Positions 23,308-49,347 of a stretch of 55,304 nucleotides of DNA are shown piece after piece. The position numbers were made by a program, and so were the translations under genes. The stretch spans positions 1 through 55,304 of the forward strand of contig JAKLKD010000018.1 in the NCBI GenBank assembly GCA_023150845.1. Direction: 5' to 3'. How positions within the stretch are numbered: position 1 is the first letter of the stretch; each line of letters starts with the position of its first letter. Below the pieces are notes generated by a model. It was given only the letters and a program-made list of their open reading frames with translations, searched no databases and was not told the DNA's origin. The stretch is from Myxococcota bacterium (GTDB taxonomy: Bacteria; Myxococcota_A; UBA796; CAJQPC01).

Positions 23308-24906
23308 GTGGCCAAAGACGTCGTCATTCTCGGTATGCTGGGCAGCAACCTCGACCGTATGCCCCGCAGAGAGCGCTGGGAGCGCTGGAGGCCCACCATC
23401 TCGCTGTTTCAGCAGGAAGACCTGCTCGTCTCACGCTTTCACCTGCTCCACGCGCCTGAGCACAGCCGACTCTGCGAAGAGATCGTCGCCGACATCCAGC
23501 TCGTGTCCCCAGAGACCACGGTGTTCCCGCGCGCCCTCAAGATCGCGGATCCCTGGGATTTTGAGGAGGTCTACGGCGCGCTTCACGACGTGGCGCGCTC
23601 CACGCCGTTCAACCCCGAGACCGAAGACATCCTCGTCCACATCACGACGGGCACCCACGTCGTGCAGATCTGCCTGTTCTTGCTCGTCGAGTCCCGGCAC
23701 ATCCCCGGGCGCCTGGTGCAGACCTCACCGCCGCGCCGCAAAGACAGCCGCGGCGACCTGAGCGTCATCGACCTCGACCTCGGCCGCTACGACCGCCTCG
23801 CCGCCCGCTTCGCCTCGGAGCGCGCCGAGGGCGCGTCCTTGCTCAAGTCGGGCATCCCCACACGAAACACCGCCTTCAACGACATGATGGACGAGATCGG
23901 CCTCGTCGCCGTGTCCTCGGACGCGCCGATCCTGCTCCTCGGGCCGACGGGCTCGGGCAAGAGCCAGCTCGCCGCGCAGATCGTCGCGCTCAAACGCGCC
24001 CGGCGCCGGGTCCAGGGCCGCTTCGTCGAGGTGAACTGCGCCACGCTCCGGGGGGACGCGGCGATGTCGGCCTTGTTCGGCCACGTCAAGGGCGCCTACA
24101 CCGGGGCCGTGTCCGCCCGGGAGGGCCTCCTGCGCGCGGCGAACGGCGGGGTGCTCTTCTTGGACGAGGTGGGGGAGCTGGGCCTCGACGAGCAAGCCAC
24201 GCTCCTGCGGGCCATCGAGCAGGGCCGCTTCGCCCCGGTCGGCGCCGACCAGGAGGTCGAGAGCCGCTTCCAGCTCATCGCCGGGACCAACCGCGACCTC
24301 AGCGTCGAGGTCCAAGAGGGCCGCTTCCGCGCCGACCTCCTCGCCCGCATCAACCTCTGGAGCTTCACCCTGCCCGCCCTGCGGGAGCGCCCTGAAGACG
24401 TCGAGCCCAACCTCGACTACGAGCTGGAGCTCGTCCGCCGCCGCTCGGGGGTCGCCGTCACCTTCTCCGCCGAGGCCCGCGCCCGGTTCTTGGACTTCGC
24501 CACGGGGCCCGAGGGCCTCTGGCCCGGCAACTTCCGCGATCTGAGCGCCGCGGTCACCCGCCTCACCACCTTGGCCCCCGGCGGGCGGGTGCGCCTGGAG
24601 GACGTCGAGCGGGAGCTGGTCCGCCTGCGCCGGGCCTGGTCCCCCGCGGCCGCCGAGACGAGCGCCGGGGAGCGCCTCGGCCGCGAGGCCCTCGGCGACG
24701 CGGCCTGGGACAGCCTCGACCGCTTCGACCAGGTGCAGCTCGCCGAGGTCCTGCGGGTGGTCGCCGAGTCCCCGAGCCTCGCCGCGGCGGGTCGTGTGCT
24801 GTTCGCCCAGAGCCGCGCCCGCCGGGGCAGCCCCAATGACAGCGACCGCCTGCGCAAGTACCTCGCCGGGTTCGGGCTCAACGGCGCCGAGCTGCTGCGC
24901 CGCTGA
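23308..24906 (+). CDS. rtcR: RtcR, CARF-domain sigma-54 activator of RNA repair
   Basis: A 532-residue enhancer-binding protein, collinear with E. coli RtcR as I know it. The N-terminal CARF domain (residues 1-180) contains RWERWRPTISLFQQEDLLV, DPWDFEEVYGALHD and the ligand loop HITTGTHVVQICLFLL ending RLVQTSPPR. The AAA+ domain has Walker A GPTGSGKS near residue 211, the sigma-54 contact loop as GAYTGA (usually GAFTGA) and Walker B GGVLFLDEVGE. The C-terminal DNA-binding part has SLAAAGRVLF and NDSDRLRKYLAGFGL. Start is GTG at 23308. The family senses RNA ends, reportedly 2',3'-cyclic-phosphate RNA, through CARF. It lies upstream of a sigma-54 promoter on the same strand and converges on rtcA. 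Confidence 0.95.
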   Translation: MAKDVVILGMLGSNLDRMPRRERWERWRPTISLFQQEDLLVSRFHLLHAPEHSRLCEEIVADIQLVSPETTVFPRALKIADPWDFEEVYGALHDVARSTPFNPETEDILVHITTGTHVVQICLFLLVESRHIPGRLVQTSPPRRKDSRGDLSVIDLDLGRYDRLAARFASERAEGASLLKSGIPTRNTAFNDMMDEIGLVAVSSDAPILLLGPTGSGKSQLAAQIVALKRARRRVQGRFVEVNCATLRGDAAMSALFGHVKGAYTGAVSAREGLLRAANGGVLFLDEVGELGLDEQATLLRAIEQGRFAPVGADQEVESRFQLIAGTNRDLSVEVQEGRFRADLLARINLWSFTLPALRERPEDVEPNLDYELELVRRRSGVAVTFSAEARARFLDFATGPEGLWPGNFRDLSAAVTRLTTLAPGGRVRLEDVERELVRLRRAWSPAAAETSAGERLGREALGDAAWDSLDRFDQVQLAEVLRVVAESPSLAAAGRVLFAQSRARRGSPNDSDRLRKYLAGFGLNGAELLRR

Positions 24907-24910
24907 CCCT

Positions 24911-24980
24911 TGTCCTCTGCCCCGCCCGTGTCACACGGGACACGGTGATCTCACGGCGTGACACTCCTCCGCAGAGGACA
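24911..24980. promoter_or_regulatory. Nested inverted repeats, candidate RtcR enhancer site
   Basis: A perfect 10-bp inverted repeat, TGTCCTCTGC (24911-24920) and GCAGAGGACA (24971-24980), encloses a second one, GTGTCAC (24928-24934) and GTGACAC (24958-24964). The two share a centre near 24946. A third small hairpin, CCCGTG-TCA-CACGGG, starts at 24925. The block ends 47 bases before the sigma-54 promoter, at the usual distance for an upstream activating sequence. Binding by RtcR is inferred from position. Confidence 0.65.
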
Positions 24981-25027
24981 CCCGCGCCCAGGGGCGGTCT
25001 GAGGCCGATCTGGCTCTGCGCATGGGC

Positions 25028-25043
25028 TGGCACAGCCCTTGCA
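25028..25043 (+). promoter_or_regulatory. Sigma-54 promoter (-24/-12) for the intergenic RNA
   Basis: TGGCACAGCCCTTGCA matches the sigma-54 consensus (TGGCACG, four bases, TTGCA) at all but one position, with GG and GC at the required 10-base separation. It points to the right, away from rtcR and towards the end of rtcA. The predicted start of transcription is near 25053-25055. No plausible protein-coding gene follows. Confidence 0.85.
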
Positions 25044-25053
25044 TTTCGTCTTC

Positions 25054-25233
25054 CCGACAAGACCGACGGCGGCGCGGGACGACGCAGGGGTGCACCGGGG
25101 GACGCCGCCGTTGAGTCTTGGACCTGAGAAGGTCCTCACTTGGATGCACGGGGGTGCTCCTGAGAACGAGGGGCCCCTCATGTGAACGGATCAGCCAAAA
25201 CTGATCTCTTCACATGAGGGGCCTCTCCCTTTT
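25054..25233 (+). ncRNA. Candidate structured RNA, sigma-54/RtcR-controlled
   Basis: Between the sigma-54 promoter and a strong terminator lies about 180 bases without a credible reading frame but with nested structure. Stem 1 pairs 25058-25074 (CAAGAC, then CGACGGCGGCG) with 25103-25120 (CGCCGCCGTTG, bulged A, GTCTTG): 17 pairs, one G-U and one bulge. Its loop of 28 bases includes GGTGCACC. Hairpin 2 is GGACCT-GAGA-AGGTCC (25120-25135), capped by a GNRA tetraloop. Hairpin 3 is GCAC-GGGG-GTGC (25146-25157). Stem 4 is the 26-bp terminator. It is not a tRNA, and I do not recognise it as a Y RNA. It could be a substrate, sensor or regulator in RNA repair. Expression is predicted, not shown. Confidence 0.65.
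25169..25233 (+). terminator. 26-bp terminator stem at the end of the structured RNA
   Basis: The arm at 25169-25194 pairs with 25201-25226 over 26 positions with one C-C mismatch and two G-U pairs. The loop is CCAAAA, followed by CCCTTTT. The T run lies only on the rightward side, so it ends the plus-strand RNA before it reaches the 3' end of rtcA at 25257. The stem is much longer than an ordinary terminator and would be a long double-stranded RNA. Confidence 0.8.
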
Positions 25234-25256
25234 CCTTGCGCCCGGCGAGGCACCCG

Positions 25257-26279
25257 TCAGCGGCCCTTCGCCTCGACCACGACCCGCACCCCCTCGGGCT
25301 CCTCCACAAAACGGAACGACGCCCCGAGCAGCCGCGTCAACACCTCGGCGTTGGTGCGGGTGTGTGAGGACACCGTCGTCACACGGATCTCCCCGCCGCC
25401 CGCCATCACCAAGGGCAGCAGGAGCTGATCCGCGAGGTGCTCGCCGACCGGGGCGTCATGCCGCAAGAAGTCCTGGGCCTCCCGGACGAGCTGCCCCATG
25501 ATCATCTCGACCCGCACGCCCTTCTCACCGAAGGCCGTGATCACCTCGACGCCAGACTCGCTGGTGAGCCGCAGCATGAGCACGAGGCCCGGGCCCGGGC
25601 TCGCCGGGCAAGGAACGAGGTGGCGGTCCTCGGCGGCGATGTCGAGCGCACGGCCCGCGACCTCCAAGGCCCGCATCCCGACCTCGGGCGGCACCTTGGC
25701 GCTGAGCACGACACACTCCGTCTTGAGGAGCGCCCCGCGCCGCAGCCAGCGGGTCGGGTGCAGCGCCGACGGCGTGATCTCCGCGGAGAAGCGCCCGCCG
25801 CCCGCCGGGAAGAAGCCGTGCCGGGACAGACGTAGGCTGACCTGCCCGCCGAGGCGGGCCATGGCCGGGACAAACACGTCGTTGAGGGCCTCAAACGGCG
25901 GCGCCGCGGAGTTGTGGGTGCCGCCCTCCAAGACCAAGGACGAGGCCTCCGGCGCCTTGAGCAAGGCCGGGAGCACGGTCTGGAGCACGAGCCCAGCGCT
26001 CCCCGCCGTGCCGACGGCGAAGCGCCGCTCACCGCCCCGGAGAGTCCGGGGGGTGAAGCGGAGCTCGGTGGAGCCCAGGTGCGCGCCCTCGACCTGCGCC
26101 TCCCCCACCTCAGCCGCGGCGAGCGTCGCGGTGAGGTGCTGGCGGAGGAGGCCCGGCTTTGCCCGGCCAGCGCGGATCCGTCGAATGTGCAGCGGCTCCC
26201 CGGTGAGGAGGGAGCAGGCCAAGGCCGTGCGGAGGATCTGCCCGCCGCCTTCGCCTTCGCCGCCGTCAAGGGTGAACAT
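25257..26279 (-). CDS. rtcA: RNA 3'-terminal phosphate cyclase
   Basis: The enzyme converts RNA 3'-phosphate to 2',3'-cyclic phosphate with ATP through an AMP-enzyme intermediate. Signatures: GGEGEGGGQILRTALA at the start, RAKPGLLRQHL, GGTHNSAAPPFEAL, HGFFPAGGGR and the nucleotidyl His region in GEHLADQLLLPL. The length of 340 residues is normal. I chose the ATG at 26279 (MFTLDGG) because GGAG stands 6 bases upstream; a start four codons earlier is possible. It follows rtcB by 37 bases on the same strand, forming the classic rtcBA operon. Confidence 0.95.
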   Translation of the reverse strand: MFTLDGGEGEGGGQILRTALACSLLTGEPLHIRRIRAGRAKPGLLRQHLTATLAAAEVGEAQVEGAHLGSTELRFTPRTLRGGERRFAVGTAGSAGLVLQTVLPALLKAPEASSLVLEGGTHNSAAPPFEALNDVFVPAMARLGGQVSLRLSRHGFFPAGGGRFSAEITPSALHPTRWLRRGALLKTECVVLSAKVPPEVGMRALEVAGRALDIAAEDRHLVPCPASPGPGLVLMLRLTSESGVEVITAFGEKGVRVEMIMGQLVREAQDFLRHDAPVGEHLADQLLLPLVMAGGGEIRVTTVSSHTRTNAEVLTRLLGASFRFVEEPEGVRVVVEAKGR

Positions 26280-26316
26280 CGGTGTCTCCAAGGCCCCCCA
26301 GAGGGGGGGCGGCTTC

Positions 26317-27543
26317 TCAGCCCTTCACACACACAACCTGGCGGAGCGTCGCGACGACCTCCACGAGATCCGACTGCGCGGCCATCACGTCGTCGATCGG
26401 CTTGTAGGCCATCGGGATCTCGTCGATCACGTCCGCGTCCTTACGGCACTCCACCCCTTCGGTGGCGCGGATCTGGTCGGCGACGGTGAACATCTTCTTG
26501 GCCTTGGTGCGGGACATCGAGCGGCCCGCGCCGTGGCTGCAGGAGCAGAAGCTCTCCGGGTTGCCCTTGCCGCGGACGATGAAGCTCTTGGCGCCCATGC
26601 TGCCCGGGATGATGCCCAGCTCCCCCGCGCCAGCGCGCACGGCGCCTTTGCGGGTCACCCAAACCTCCTCACCGAAGTGCGTCTCCCGGGCGATGTAGTT
26701 GTGGTGGCAGTTCACGGCGACGTCCGTGAGCTCAAACGGCGGCAAGGTGGCCCGGGCCGCGTTCACGACGGCCTCCATCATGATCGCCCGGTTCATCGCG
26801 GCGTAGGACTGGGCCCAAGACACGGCCTCGACGTAGTCGTCGAAGGACTCCGTGCCCTCGCGCAGGTAGCCGAGGTCGCGGTCCGGCAGGTGGACGTCGA
26901 GCTTCAACATCTCCTCCCGGGCCTTCTCGATGAAGTAGGTGCCGATCTTGTTGCCGACGCCCCGGGAGCCGGAGTGCAGCATGAACCAGACGCCGCCCTC
27001 GGTGTCGAGGCAGACCTCGATGAAGTGGTTGCCGGTGCCTAAGGTGCCGAGCTGGTTCGCGTTGTTGGAGTGGCCGACCTTCGGGTGCTTCTCGACGATA
27101 CGCTTGAAGCCCGGGGCGAGCTCACCCCACGCGGCGCGGATGCGCTCCCGCGGGTCATGCCAAGCGCCGCGGTCGTTTCGGCCGCCGTTGTCGGTGCGGC
27201 CGTGCGGCACGGCGTGCTCGATCTTGAGGCGGAGCGCGCGGAGGTCGTCCGGCAGGTGCTCCGCGCGTAAGGTGGTGCGCTGGGCGATCATGCCGCAGCC
27301 GAGGTCCACGCCGACGGCGGCCGGGATGATGGCCTCGGTGGTCGGGATGACGCTGCCGACCGTGGCGCCTTTGCCGAGGTGCACGTCCGGCATGACGGCG
27401 ACGTGCTTGTAGATGAACGGCAACGACGCGATGTTCTCAAGCTGCTTCCGGGCCTCAGCCTCCACGGCCACGCCGCGAACCCAGGCCTTGATCGGGTGAC
27501 CCTTGCTGGTCAGGGTCTCGTACTGCGGGGTCTCAGTGGACAT
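26317..27543 (-). CDS. rtcB: RNA-splicing ligase RtcB (locus 1)
   Basis: GTP- and Mn-dependent ligase joining 2',3'-cyclic-phosphate or 3'-phosphate RNA to 5'-OH RNA. All motif residues are visible: MPDVHLGKG, GVDLGCGM near residue 80 with the metal-binding Cys, GTLGTGNHFIEV, HSGSRGVGN, NCHHNY and the guanylylated His in SHGAGRSMSR near 335. The C-terminal KPIDDVMAAQ is typical. The 408-residue length matches E. coli RtcB. A sigma-54 promoter 36 bases upstream makes it RtcR-dependent by inference. Confidence 0.97.
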   Translation of the reverse strand: MSTETPQYETLTSKGHPIKAWVRGVAVEAEARKQLENIASLPFIYKHVAVMPDVHLGKGATVGSVIPTTEAIIPAAVGVDLGCGMIAQRTTLRAEHLPDDLRALRLKIEHAVPHGRTDNGGRNDRGAWHDPRERIRAAWGELAPGFKRIVEKHPKVGHSNNANQLGTLGTGNHFIEVCLDTEGGVWFMLHSGSRGVGNKIGTYFIEKAREEMLKLDVHLPDRDLGYLREGTESFDDYVEAVSWAQSYAAMNRAIMMEAVVNAARATLPPFELTDVAVNCHHNYIARETHFGEEVWVTRKGAVRAGAGELGIIPGSMGAKSFIVRGKGNPESFCSCSHGAGRSMSRTKAKKMFTVADQIRATEGVECRKDADVIDEIPMAYKPIDDVMAAQSDLVEVVATLRQVVCVKG

Positions 27544-27578: not shown

Positions 27579-27594
27579 AGCAAGGAGCGTGCCG
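27579..27594 (-). promoter_or_regulatory. Sigma-54 promoter of rtcBA
   Basis: Read on the minus strand the site is CGGCACGCTCCTTGCT, matching the -24/-12 consensus at all positions except the first. The predicted start is near 27568, leaving a leader of about 25 bases before the rtcB ATG. The same 15-base core occurs before the second rtcB gene at 47779-47794. The upstream sequence has only a weak inverted repeat (AGCGCT ... GGCGCT at 27595-27612) and lacks the nested repeats found near the structured RNA. Confidence 0.85.
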
Positions 27595-27656: not shown

Positions 27657-28781
27657 CTATCCATTTGGATAGCCCGACTCAGCGGTCGGCAGCGGCGCGA
27701 GGCTATAGGCGGTGCTGCGTCCTCCAGCGGCGCTCTTGATCAGGAGCCCCAGCTTCACCAAGGCGTCGAGGTCACGCCCGGCGGTGTCCTGAGAGCAGCC
27801 GGTGAGCTTGGCCCACTTCGACGAGGTGAGCTTGCCGATGAAGGATCCGTCGAGGAGGTCGTTGAGCATCAGCCGCTGGCGGGGGTTCAGGGGCTTGTCG
27901 TGGTGCTCGGCCCAGAAGCGCGCCTTGTGGAGCACGTCGGCGAGGAGCTCCTCAGCGCTCAAGAGGGCACGATCGAGGCAGCCCATGAACCACAGGAGCC
28001 AGGGGGTGATGTCGAGCCCGCCGCGCTGGGCGGCCTCCAGGGCCTTGTAGTAGTCGCGGCGCTCGGCGCGGATCTGCGAGGAGAGGCTGTAGCAGCGCCA
28101 AGGCCGCGCCTCGGCCCGAGCCAAGGAGAGCTCGGTGATCGCCCGGGCGACGCGCCCGTTGCCGTCGTCAAAGGGGTGGATCGTGATGAACCAGAGGTGG
28201 GCGATGGCGGCCTTGAGCACGCCGTTCTGCGAGTCCTGGGTGTTGAACCAGCGGAAGAAGCGCGCGCACTCACGCTCCAGGCGCTTGGCGTCCGGCGCGA
28301 TGAAGTGGACCTTCACCCGGTCGACGTGCCCCGAGATCACCCGCATCGGCCCGGTGCGCCAAGCGCCGACCGTGAGCACGCCGTCATCATCCACGCCGTC
28401 CGGGAACAGCAGGCGGTGCCAGGTGAAGAGGCGCTCGGCGCTCAGCGGCGCGTCATACCGCTGGGTGGCGTCGAGGATCACGTCCACGAGGCCCTCCACA
28501 TGGCGGTCGGCCGGGGTCAAGACGCCGATGTTCAGGTTGAGCCGCCGCGCGAAGGAGGAGCGCACCTGGTCGAGGTCGAGGAGCTCCCCCTCAATCTCGC
28601 TCGTCATCAGGGCCTCGGCGGTCAGCGAGCGCAGGTTGGCCTCGCCCTGCACGCTGCGCCCAAAGGCCGCCATGCGGCCCAAGAGCCGGTCCTGGTGGCG
28701 CTGGAGCGGCGCCAAGACCTCGGCGACGACAGCTTCGTCCCAGGTGAAGTGGGGCCAGCCCTGGAGCTCATGGATGAACAT
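27657..28781 (-). CDS. Fic-domain protein (DUF4172-Fic-winged helix)
   Basis: A 374-residue protein. The N-terminus (WPHFTWDEAVVAEVLAPL) matches the DUF4172 module. An inhibitory helix motif TSEIEGE (T-xxx-E-G) near residue 60 marks a class II autoinhibited Fic protein. The active site HPFDDGNGR lies near residue 200. The C-terminal winged helix (GSFIGKLTSSKWAKLTGCSQ) probably binds DNA. Fic enzymes usually transfer AMP to protein hydroxyls. I chose the ATG at 28781 because CGGAG precedes it. Its upstream region carries two TCTCCGC/GCGGAGA palindromes, so autoregulation through its own winged helix is likely. The stop codon lies within the palindrome GCTATCCAAATGGATAGC. Confidence 0.88.
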   Translation of the reverse strand: MFIHELQGWPHFTWDEAVVAEVLAPLQRHQDRLLGRMAAFGRSVQGEANLRSLTAEALMTSEIEGELLDLDQVRSSFARRLNLNIGVLTPADRHVEGLVDVILDATQRYDAPLSAERLFTWHRLLFPDGVDDDGVLTVGAWRTGPMRVISGHVDRVKVHFIAPDAKRLERECARFFRWFNTQDSQNGVLKAAIAHLWFITIHPFDDGNGRVARAITELSLARAEARPWRCYSLSSQIRAERRDYYKALEAAQRGGLDITPWLLWFMGCLDRALLSAEELLADVLHKARFWAEHHDKPLNPRQRLMLNDLLDGSFIGKLTSSKWAKLTGCSQDTAGRDLDALVKLGLLIKSAAGGRSTAYSLAPLPTAESGYPNG

Positions 28782-28787
28782 CGACAA

Positions 28788-28808
28788 TCTCCGCGCTTGA
28801 TGCGGAGA
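28788..28808. promoter_or_regulatory. Inverted repeat 1 upstream of the Fic gene
   Basis: Arms TCTCCGC (28788-28794) and GCGGAGA (28802-28808), spaced by 7 bases, begin 7 bases before the Fic start codon. The site overlaps the ribosome-binding region, so bound protein would block expression. It has the same half-sites as the repeats at 28839 and 28988. Confidence 0.65.
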
Positions 28809-28838
28809 ATAGCACGGCGCGAGTCGAATGCCTTGATC

Positions 28839-28865
28839 TAATCTCCGCAAGATTTGCGGAGATTA
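28839..28865. promoter_or_regulatory. Perfect palindromic operator upstream of the Fic gene
   Basis: Arms TAATCTCCGCAA (28839-28850) and TTGCGGAGATTA (28854-28865) are perfectly complementary around the centre GAT. A 12-bp perfect inverted repeat of this length in GC-rich DNA is a strong operator candidate. It lies about 60 bases upstream of the Fic ATG, where a promoter is expected. Confidence 0.75.
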
Positions 28866-45869: not shown

Positions 45870-46519
45870 CGGCGGATCCTCCGCGCAGCGCACCGTTGAG
45901 GTCGAGGGTCCACGAACGAACGGGGGCCCCGCGGGTGAGCTGGTGGTGGCCCAGGCGCATCTGGGCTTGGGTGAGCTGGGTCTGGGTCTCGTGGGCCTCC
46001 CGCTGGAGCGCGCTCAGGCGTGCGAGGGCCTCCCGGCGGTTGTCCTTCTGGCGGCGGGAGGCGGCGGCGCGAACCTGCAGGCCGGTCGGGGTGTGGATCG
46101 CCCGCACGGCGCTCGCGGTCTTGTTGACGTGCTGACCGCCGGGGCCCCCCGCGCGGCTCGCGGTGAAGGTCACCTCCTCGGGGCGAAGCTCCTTCGGCGT
46201 CGGCGGAGGCGCGGGGCGGAGGCTCACCCCCGGCGAACCAGCGGCGGCGGGCCCGGGGGCCGCGCGCGGCGTGGATCAAGAGGTGGGTGCCGCACCAGCC
46301 GCCGAGCGCCGTCGGGGCGTCCCCGGTGAGGGTGAAGGTGACGGAGCGGGGGCGGGCGGGGTGACCCTCGATGTGGGTGTTGAGGACGCTGAGACCGGCG
46401 GTCTGGGCGGCCTCGGCGAGCCGCTCGGCGAGCTTAGCGACGAAGGCGCGGACCTCCTCGGGGCCGTCTCCGGCGCTCACGACGAGGGACCAGCGGGGGT
46501 TTGGGTTGGTGGCGCTCAT
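45862..46519 (-). pseudogene. prfH: PrfH release-factor homologue, split by a one-base frameshift
   Basis: The N-terminal half (46519 leftwards: WSLVVSAGDGPEEVRAFVAK ... GGWCGTHLLIHAARGPRARR-RWFAG) and the C-terminal half (from about 46227: PEEVTFTASRAGGPGGQHVN then KTASAVRAIHTPTGLQV) together make a standard RF-H. It has the GGQ motif near residue 128 and lacks the codon-recognition domain. The halves lie in different frames. The shift is at a run of five G (plus-strand C at 46227-46231); removing one G restores a continuous WFAGVSLRP. Whether it is a dead gene, a sequencing error or programmed frameshifting is open. The start overlaps the rtcB2 stop (ATGA). PrfH with RtcB2 is known to rescue and repair decoding-centre-damaged ribosomes. 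Confidence 0.85.
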
Positions 46520-47733
46520 CGTTTCACCGTGATGACGGGGCTCAAGGTGGCGACGCGGCGGGCGGCCCCAGCGGCCTCCAGGGCGTCGATGACGGGGTCT
46601 ACGTCTTTGTAGGCGTCGGGGTGCTCGGCGTAGAGCAGCTCGGGGTCGTCGCAGATGACGCGGCCGCCCAAGGCGGTGCGGGTCAGCTCGGCGCGGCGGT
46701 GGCGGTCCTTGAAGCGGGCGATGGCGTCGGAGCGCTTGAGGCGGCGACCGGCCCCGTGCGCCACGCAGCAGAGGCTCTCCTCGTCCCCGGCGCCCATCAT
46801 CACCGCGCTCACCGTGCCCCGGGTGCCGAGGACGACGGTGGGCTGATCCCGCTCGGCGGGGGCGGCGCCTTTGCGGTGCAAGAACACCTCGCGGCCGTCG
46901 AGGACTCGGCGGGTGACGTCGTTGTGCACGAGGTCGAAGGTGTGGGTCCAGCGGCCGGGGCGAGCGATCCCGGCGGCGCTGAGCAGGCGCCAGGCCAGCA
47001 CCAGGCGGTTCGTGCGGGCGAACCGAACGGCGCCCTCCAGCTCCACGAGGTACTGCTCGGCGGTCTCGGCGCTGAGCACGACGTCGCCCCAGCGCCCGAT
47101 GAGCGCCCGGCCCAGGCCCCGGCTGCCGGAGTGGGCCAAGACGACGGCCCCACCCCGGCGCAGGCCCAGGGCCTCGGCGGCGGCGCGGTCGGAGATCGCC
47201 GTCACCTCGCTGAGCTCGACGAAGTGGTTGCCGCCGCCGACGCTGCCCAAGGCGAGGCCCAGCTCGGGGTCGTCGGGGGGCTCGGGGAGCGTGAGGGCGG
47301 GCTCGGCGGGGCAGGCCGCGGCGAGCTCAGCGAGGGACTCGGGCACGCCGGGCAAGGTGGCGAGGCCCCGGGGGCCCTGGCTCCAGGCGGCGCGTAAGGC
47401 GAGGCCGGGATCTACGTCGGGCAAGGCCGGGCCGTCGGTGGCCTCGCGCACCCGGCGCTCCAAGGCGTCGCCGCTGGCCTTCACCCGCGGGGCGGCGAAG
47501 AGGCGCACGCCGCAGCCCGCGTCGCCGCCGACGAGCAGGGGGCGGACCTCACCGTCCAGCGCGAAGGCCGCGCCGATGGGGATCCCCGGGCCGGGGTGCA
47601 GGTCGGGCAGGCCCACGGCGCGAACGCAGCGGGGCAGGCGGCTCACCGTGGCGAGCTGGTCGAGGGCTTCAGGCTCAAAGTGGACCTTGGCGCCGCCGAG
47701 CAGGCGGGTGTGGTCGGGGAGCGGCGTGAACAT
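46516..47733 (-). CDS. rtcB2: RtcB-type RNA ligase, locus 2 (RtcB2)
   Basis: A 405-residue RtcB paralogue, quite different from the locus 1 protein but with all catalytic motifs: GLPDLHPGPG, GGDAGCGVR near residue 70, SVGGGNHFVEL, LAHSGSRGLG, LVHNDV and the guanylylation site VAHGAGRRLKR near 326. The start at 47733 has AGGAGG six bases upstream. It is the first gene of an operon with prfH and the basic protein, and a sigma-54 promoter lies about 45 bases upstream. Partnership with PrfH suggests 16S rRNA as substrate. Confidence 0.93.
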   Translation of the reverse strand: MFTPLPDHTRLLGGAKVHFEPEALDQLATVSRLPRCVRAVGLPDLHPGPGIPIGAAFALDGEVRPLLVGGDAGCGVRLFAAPRVKASGDALERRVREATDGPALPDVDPGLALRAAWSQGPRGLATLPGVPESLAELAAACPAEPALTLPEPPDDPELGLALGSVGGGNHFVELSEVTAISDRAAAEALGLRRGGAVVLAHSGSRGLGRALIGRWGDVVLSAETAEQYLVELEGAVRFARTNRLVLAWRLLSAAGIARPGRWTHTFDLVHNDVTRRVLDGREVFLHRKGAAPAERDQPTVVLGTRGTVSAVMMGAGDEESLCCVAHGAGRRLKRSDAIARFKDRHRRAELTRTALGGRVICDDPELLYAEHPDAYKDVDPVIDALEAAGAARRVATLSPVITVKR

Positions 47734-47778
47734 CGGGGCCTCCTGGGCGGCAGACCGCCCGGCGATGCCAGCCCTCTT

Positions 47779-47794
47779 CGCAAGGAGCGTGCCG
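47779..47794 (-). promoter_or_regulatory. Sigma-54 promoter of rtcB2-prfH
   Basis: On the minus strand the site reads CGGCACGCTCCTTGCG. It shares the whole 15-base core CGGCACGCTCCTTGC with the rtcBA promoter at 27579-27594. The predicted start is near 47768, 35 bases before the rtcB2 ATG. The divergent activator gene begins 70 bases away. Confidence 0.83.
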
Positions 47795-47865
47795 GGCCTC
47801 AGCGTGGGCCTGGGGCGCGGAGGTGGTGCGCCGCTCATCAGACAAGCTGGTGTATGCTTCACCAC

Positions 47866-49327
<1,462 letters not shown>

Positions 49328-49347
<20 letters not shown>

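Follow-up and report, generated by a model that had tools for sequence, protein, structure and literature searches.

A predicted sigma-54-dependent small RNA gene between rtcR and rtcA in a Myxococcota bacterium, and a second RNA under a matching control region

INTRODUCTION

Several sets of bacterial small RNAs (sRNAs), such as GlmY/GlmZ (QseF/GlrR) and Qrr (LuxO), have sigma-54 promoters and dedicated enhancer-binding proteins (bEBPs). To our knowledge very few sRNAs are known from myxobacteria, and the best studied of them is Pxr. In Myxococcus xanthus, Pxr is a multi-stem-loop sRNA which has its own predicted sigma-54 promoter and lies downstream of the bEBP gene nla19; its host lacks Hfq, and paralogs of Pxr are present in Cystobacter (PMC5568312, PMC5684412). 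In Pseudomonas, CrcZ and CrcY are two unlinked sigma-54 sRNAs with one activator, CbrB, which has the upstream subsites TGTTAC/GTAACA (PMC6296734). A noncoding RNA near rtcBA and rtcR is also found in the rsr-yrlBA-rtcBA operon, where it is a Y RNA.

Here we describe RNA1, a predicted sRNA encoded between rtcR and rtcA in the window (the whole 55,304-nt stretch of DNA that was analysed), together with RNA2, an unlinked RNA under a matching control region. Like Pxr, RNA1 lies downstream of a bEBP gene (rtcR), has its own sigma-54 promoter and forms several stem-loops, and a search of the genome (assembly ~96% complete) found one CsrA and no Hfq. However, the 108-nt Pxr is flanked by Mxan_1078/nla19 and an NADH dehydrogenase gene and conserved within its family, whereas RNA1 is ~180 nt long and sits beside rtcR/rtcA without a match in Rfam; the two are set apart by synteny and description. 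From GlmY/GlmZ and Qrr, too, RNA1 differs in having no match in Rfam, and its upstream motif is another one. RNA1 and RNA2 resemble CrcZ/CrcY in being an unlinked pair with sigma-54 promoters and shared, repeated upstream half-sites, but the CbrB subsites are unlike the GTGTCAC of RNA1/RNA2, and CrcZ works on Hfq/Crc (PMC4063720). The Y RNAs of rsr-yrlBA-rtcBA are tRNA-like and encoded within the RtcR-driven operon, whereas RNA1 runs convergently from a promoter of its own and showed no tRNA-like fold. The kind of RNA is known (Pxr, CrcZ/CrcY, Qrr, GlmY/GlmZ), and the RNA1 family itself is new.

RESULTS

The RNA1 interval is bounded on one side by rtcR (23308-24906, plus strand), which encodes a CARF-type enhancer-binding protein (PF06956, 2e-74; NCBIfam RtcR equivalog, 743 bits against a cut-off of 650), and on the other by rtcA (25257-26291; PF01137, 8e-72) and then rtcB (26317-27543; PF01139, 7e-130), both on the minus strand. 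RNA1 is convergent with rtcA, and rtcB has a sigma-54-like site of its own, two points absent from the initial annotation of this DNA. The one congener compared, sister genome G001 (Myxococcota bacterium MAG.430), has the same locus with the same gene order. The -24/-12 site TGGCACAGCCCTTGCA (25028-25043, plus strand), which had been described as near-consensus, is in fact perfect, with 0 mismatches to TGGCACN5TTGCW; it is identical in the sister and is the only perfect site in the whole window, where ~0.03 would be expected from composition. The nested inverted repeats noticed earlier upstream of this promoter (24911-24980, plus strand) hold as well: the outer 10-bp arms TGTCCTCTGC/GCAGAGGACA (24911-24920/24971-24980) pair at 10 of 10 positions, and both these and the inner GTGTCAC/GTGACAC half-sites (24928-24934/24958-24964) are kept in the sister species. 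Within this region lie the palindrome GTGTC-N6-GACAC GTGTCACACGGGACAC (24928-24943, plus strand), whose RNA2 counterpart is GTGTCACAGGGTGACAC, and a promoter-proximal element GTGACAC-N5-CGCAGAG (24958-24976, plus strand), which recurs in the RNA2 promoter at almost equal spacing from the -24 element. Elsewhere in the sister genome, a promoter 82% similar to the -24/-12 region of RNA1 precedes an apparent type IV pilin gene (L008 1300-1540).

With its predicted ends, RNA1 spans about 180 nt on the plus strand (25054-25233) and folds at -107.1 kcal/mol (z -7.6), a value that none of 200 shuffles reached. Because the opposite strand folds equally well (z -7.7), the direction of RNA1 rests on the promoter. 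The stems claimed for this segment were all recovered in the plus-strand fold. P1 (25058-25120) is a 17-bp stem with one bulge and a 28-nt apical region, in which 25058-25074 pair with 25103-25113 and 25115-25120, and its paired positions carry no substitution between the two species. P2 (25121-25134) is the hairpin GACCU-GAGA-AGGUC with a GNRA loop (GAGA), and P3 (25142-25160) is a 7-bp GC hairpin, GGA-U-GCAC-GGGG-GUGC-UCC, which contains TGCACGGGGGTGC (25145-25157), an element common to RNA2. The terminal 26-bp hairpin (25168-25227) had been taken for a terminator with a T run; the hairpin is strong, but the T run (25230-25233) is weak (CCCTTTTCC in the window, CCGCTTTCC in the sister) and a terminator scan made no call there. 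As had been stated, no plausible protein lies in the interval, the longest ATG-initiated frame within RNA1 being 13 codons. Searches of RNA1 for tRNAs and against Rfam, at gathering and at permissive thresholds, returned nothing credible; a TPP-like resemblance (GGGGUGC/CUGAGA) was dropped for want of an Rfam match, and a CsrA sponge of the CsrB/RsmZ type was dropped since the folds of both RNAs, by inspection, have no ANGGA in hairpin loops. The segment between rtcR and rtcA very likely encodes a strongly folded sigma-54 small regulatory RNA, as judged from these sequence features.

Over its 180 nt, RNA1 of the window is 95.6% identical to that of the sister (8 differences). In the same comparison the spacer between array and promoter reaches 63%, the stretch past the terminator 80%, rtcR 89%, rtcA 87% and rtcB 92%; because segments of coding sequence nearby reach an identity similar to that of RNA1, its conservation is supportive and not unique. 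In the consensus fold of the two sequences, all 8 differences fall at unpaired positions. A consensus fold of this kind favours unpaired differences by construction, and therefore single-sequence folds were also used, with which the differences still avoid paired positions (binomial p 0.007 with the fold of the window, 1e-4 with that of the sister). Compensatory changes were absent between the two known sequences (n=2, window and sister). In blastn searches of 58 relatives, plasmids and phages, the sister was the only hit retained for RNA1; the 30-nt matches in two genomes (G005 and G034) were rejected as apparent chance similarity between GC-rich stretches, that in G005 covering the GC-rich P1 segment alone. 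An RNA1 21-mer was absent from viral contigs. The covariance search that the initial annotation had proposed for rtcR-linked RNAs in other Myxococcota, made with model R1 over 379 genomes, gave chance-level scores only beyond the two congeners, and so did 22 further rtcR loci from the same order. In the data searched, the RNA1 family thus appears confined to a single genus.

The motif GTGTCACN10-40GTGACAC was searched by itself in both congeneric genomes (G000 and G001). Two places are conserved in both: RNA1, and a place on contig 273 of G000 and contig 222 of G001, where a second perfect sigma-54 site follows the motif at a distance of 71 bp. This second place holds RNA2, a predicted RNA of ~195 nt, conserved and structured (z -3.8), with a strong terminator (L055, about 1424/1410-1210, minus strand; L052, 1591-1830). 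The ~125 nt at the 3′-end of RNA2 are identical in both species, and its substitutions show no significant avoidance of paired positions with single-sequence folds. The promoters of RNA1 and RNA2 have GTGACAC-N3-5-CGCAGAG in common, ~50 bp upstream of the -24 element. Moreover, both RNAs contain TGCAYGGGGGTGC, which 54 of 1000 shuffles matched as well; taken alone, this shared hairpin is no more than suggestive. The other places with TGCAYGGGGGTGC in both genomes were set aside, the promoter being absent from them. RNA2 lies near XRE-type regulators and a phosphoesterase-like frame, with no rtc genes nearby and no bEBP in the ~17-20 kb examined on each side.

When the joint motif GTGTC-N6/7-GACAC-N60-90-TGGCACN5TTGC was searched over 379 Myxococcota genomes, it was found at exactly the RNA1 and RNA2 loci in each congener and at four other promoters from a single distant family (three genomes), and the reversed control gave 0 matches. 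With a stricter motif, a search of 84,980 species genomes recovered the two loci of the sister MAG, along with eight further matches that appear unrelated. The distant-family matches (GTGTC-N7-GACAC with sigma-54 sites, in G208, G228 and G240) are not RNAs, since open frames for proteins follow them, several with secretion-like N-termini, and open frames also follow the paired sigma-54 sites at which GACAC occurs once (L100, L101). As a separate observation, GTGTC-N6/7-GACAC with sigma-54 sites stands before several secreted-looking protein frames in that distant family (L081, L082, L083, L086), which suggests a regulon whose bEBP recognises a similar operator.

In most of the rtcR loci fetched from the order, rtcR and rtcB are divergently oriented and a sigma-54 site lies in the intergenic region. 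Of 20 such regions, 11 contained a perfect TATC-N6-GATA and 4 more a copy with a single mismatch, and shuffles rarely matched it; the recurrence of this element makes it likely to be the RtcR box. In the window, a perfect candidate box, CTATCCAAATGGATAG (27657-27672, minus strand), lies upstream of rtcB (CTATCCAATCAGATAG in the sister), together with the sigma-54-like site of rtcBA, CGGCACGCTCCTTGCT (27579-27594, minus strand), which is the same in the sister. A gene for a DUF4172-Fic domain protein (27657-28850, minus strand) ends right at this candidate box. Further along, the window holds a second RtcB-family protein (46516-47874, minus strand) of the NCBIfam PRK09588/TIGR03073 type, under both cut-offs, and divergent from it a second enhancer-binding protein (47866-49347, plus strand) with a Fis-type HTH, whose alignment with RtcR, at 35% identity, reaches into the CARF region. 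A sigma-54-like site, CGGCACGCTCCTTGCG, lies between these two genes at 47794-47779, and the window has two rtc-like switches ~20 kb apart.

DISCUSSION

The initial annotation had read this locus as a sigma-54-controlled structured RNA that RtcR induces together with rtcBA and that serves as a repair substrate, a decoy or a scaffold. The structured RNA and its sigma-54 control are well supported by the present analysis; the co-induction and the role in RNA repair are not, and we consider them unlikely. RNA1 does lie directly 3′ of rtcR, and Y RNAs are present in some rtc operons (PMC7790460), but RNA1 matches neither a Y RNA nor a tRNA-like RNA and is absent from the 22 other rtcR loci searched in the order. 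Whereas the candidate box before rtcB is perfect, TATC-N6-GATA is missing upstream of RNA1; the closest sequence there departs from it at 2 positions and is equalled in 9% of shuffles. This best match is TGTC-N6-GACA, in which one symmetric base differs per half-site, and because its spacing is that of the candidate RtcR box, RtcR control is kept at low probability. The motif of RNA1 recurs, moreover, before RNA2, at a locus without rtc genes. RNA1 is probably not a target of RtcR, as far as its control region can tell, and it probably adjoins the repair genes by coincidence, because that control region matches the one of unlinked RNA2 and not that of the rtc operon.

A different reading takes the interval for a 3′-end element of rtcBA, in which a convergent transcript with a long hairpin would terminate or antagonise rtcBA in cis only. 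RNA1 is indeed convergent to rtcA, its hairpin lies ~30 nt past the rtcA stop codon, and this hairpin could form in both strands. We nevertheless regard such a cis element as quite improbable, for the 5′ two thirds of RNA1, the promoter and the enhancer array are conserved as much as the terminal hairpin, the minus-strand hairpin has no T run, and RNA2, under the same kind of promoter, lies away from any rtc locus. Least of all do we expect a small mRNA or dual-function RNA: the 13-codon frame MHGGAPENEGPLM (25144-25185), with a weak AAGG ahead, is preserved unchanged in the sister, but it spans P3 and the terminator arm, where nucleotides are constrained anyway, it has no synonymous change between the two species, and RNA2 has no counterpart peptide.

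We favour, with moderate confidence, the explanation that RNA1 is a stand-alone sigma-54 sRNA gene co-regulated with RNA2 by a bEBP other than RtcR, and that both RNAs are trans-acting riboregulators. The GTGTCAC/GTGACAC (+CGCAGAG) array at 24911-24980 would be the binding site of a signal-responsive bEBP, probably one other than RtcR, and sigma-54 RNA polymerase would then transcribe RNA1 from ~25054 to 25233 on the plus strand; the same activator would switch on the unlinked RNA2. By analogy, RNA1 and RNA2 may then act in trans, by pairing with targets or by sequestering a protein, and exposed elements, for instance the GCAY-GGGG-GUGC hairpin common to both, would serve such sequestration. 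The promoter, the upstream array, the fold, the conservation and the second locus are the parts of this model that the sequence supports, whereas transcription, the identity of the activator and everything downstream of it (targets, partner and signal) are what we infer. A more specific and rather doubtful version is a two-RNA circuit, of effector and decoy or of additive paralogs, which would bind an RNA-binding protein through the GCAY-GGGG-GUGC hairpin without Hfq and would be switched by a GTGTCAC-reading enhancer-binding protein.

The present analysis corrects an attractive but unsupported tie between RNA1 and RtcR-controlled RNA repair, and provides concrete targets for finding the activator and the RNA-binding partner of RNA1 and RNA2. 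Starting from nothing but a promoter motif, it predicts two co-regulated, strongly structured sRNAs for a Myxococcota genus in which no Hfq was found.
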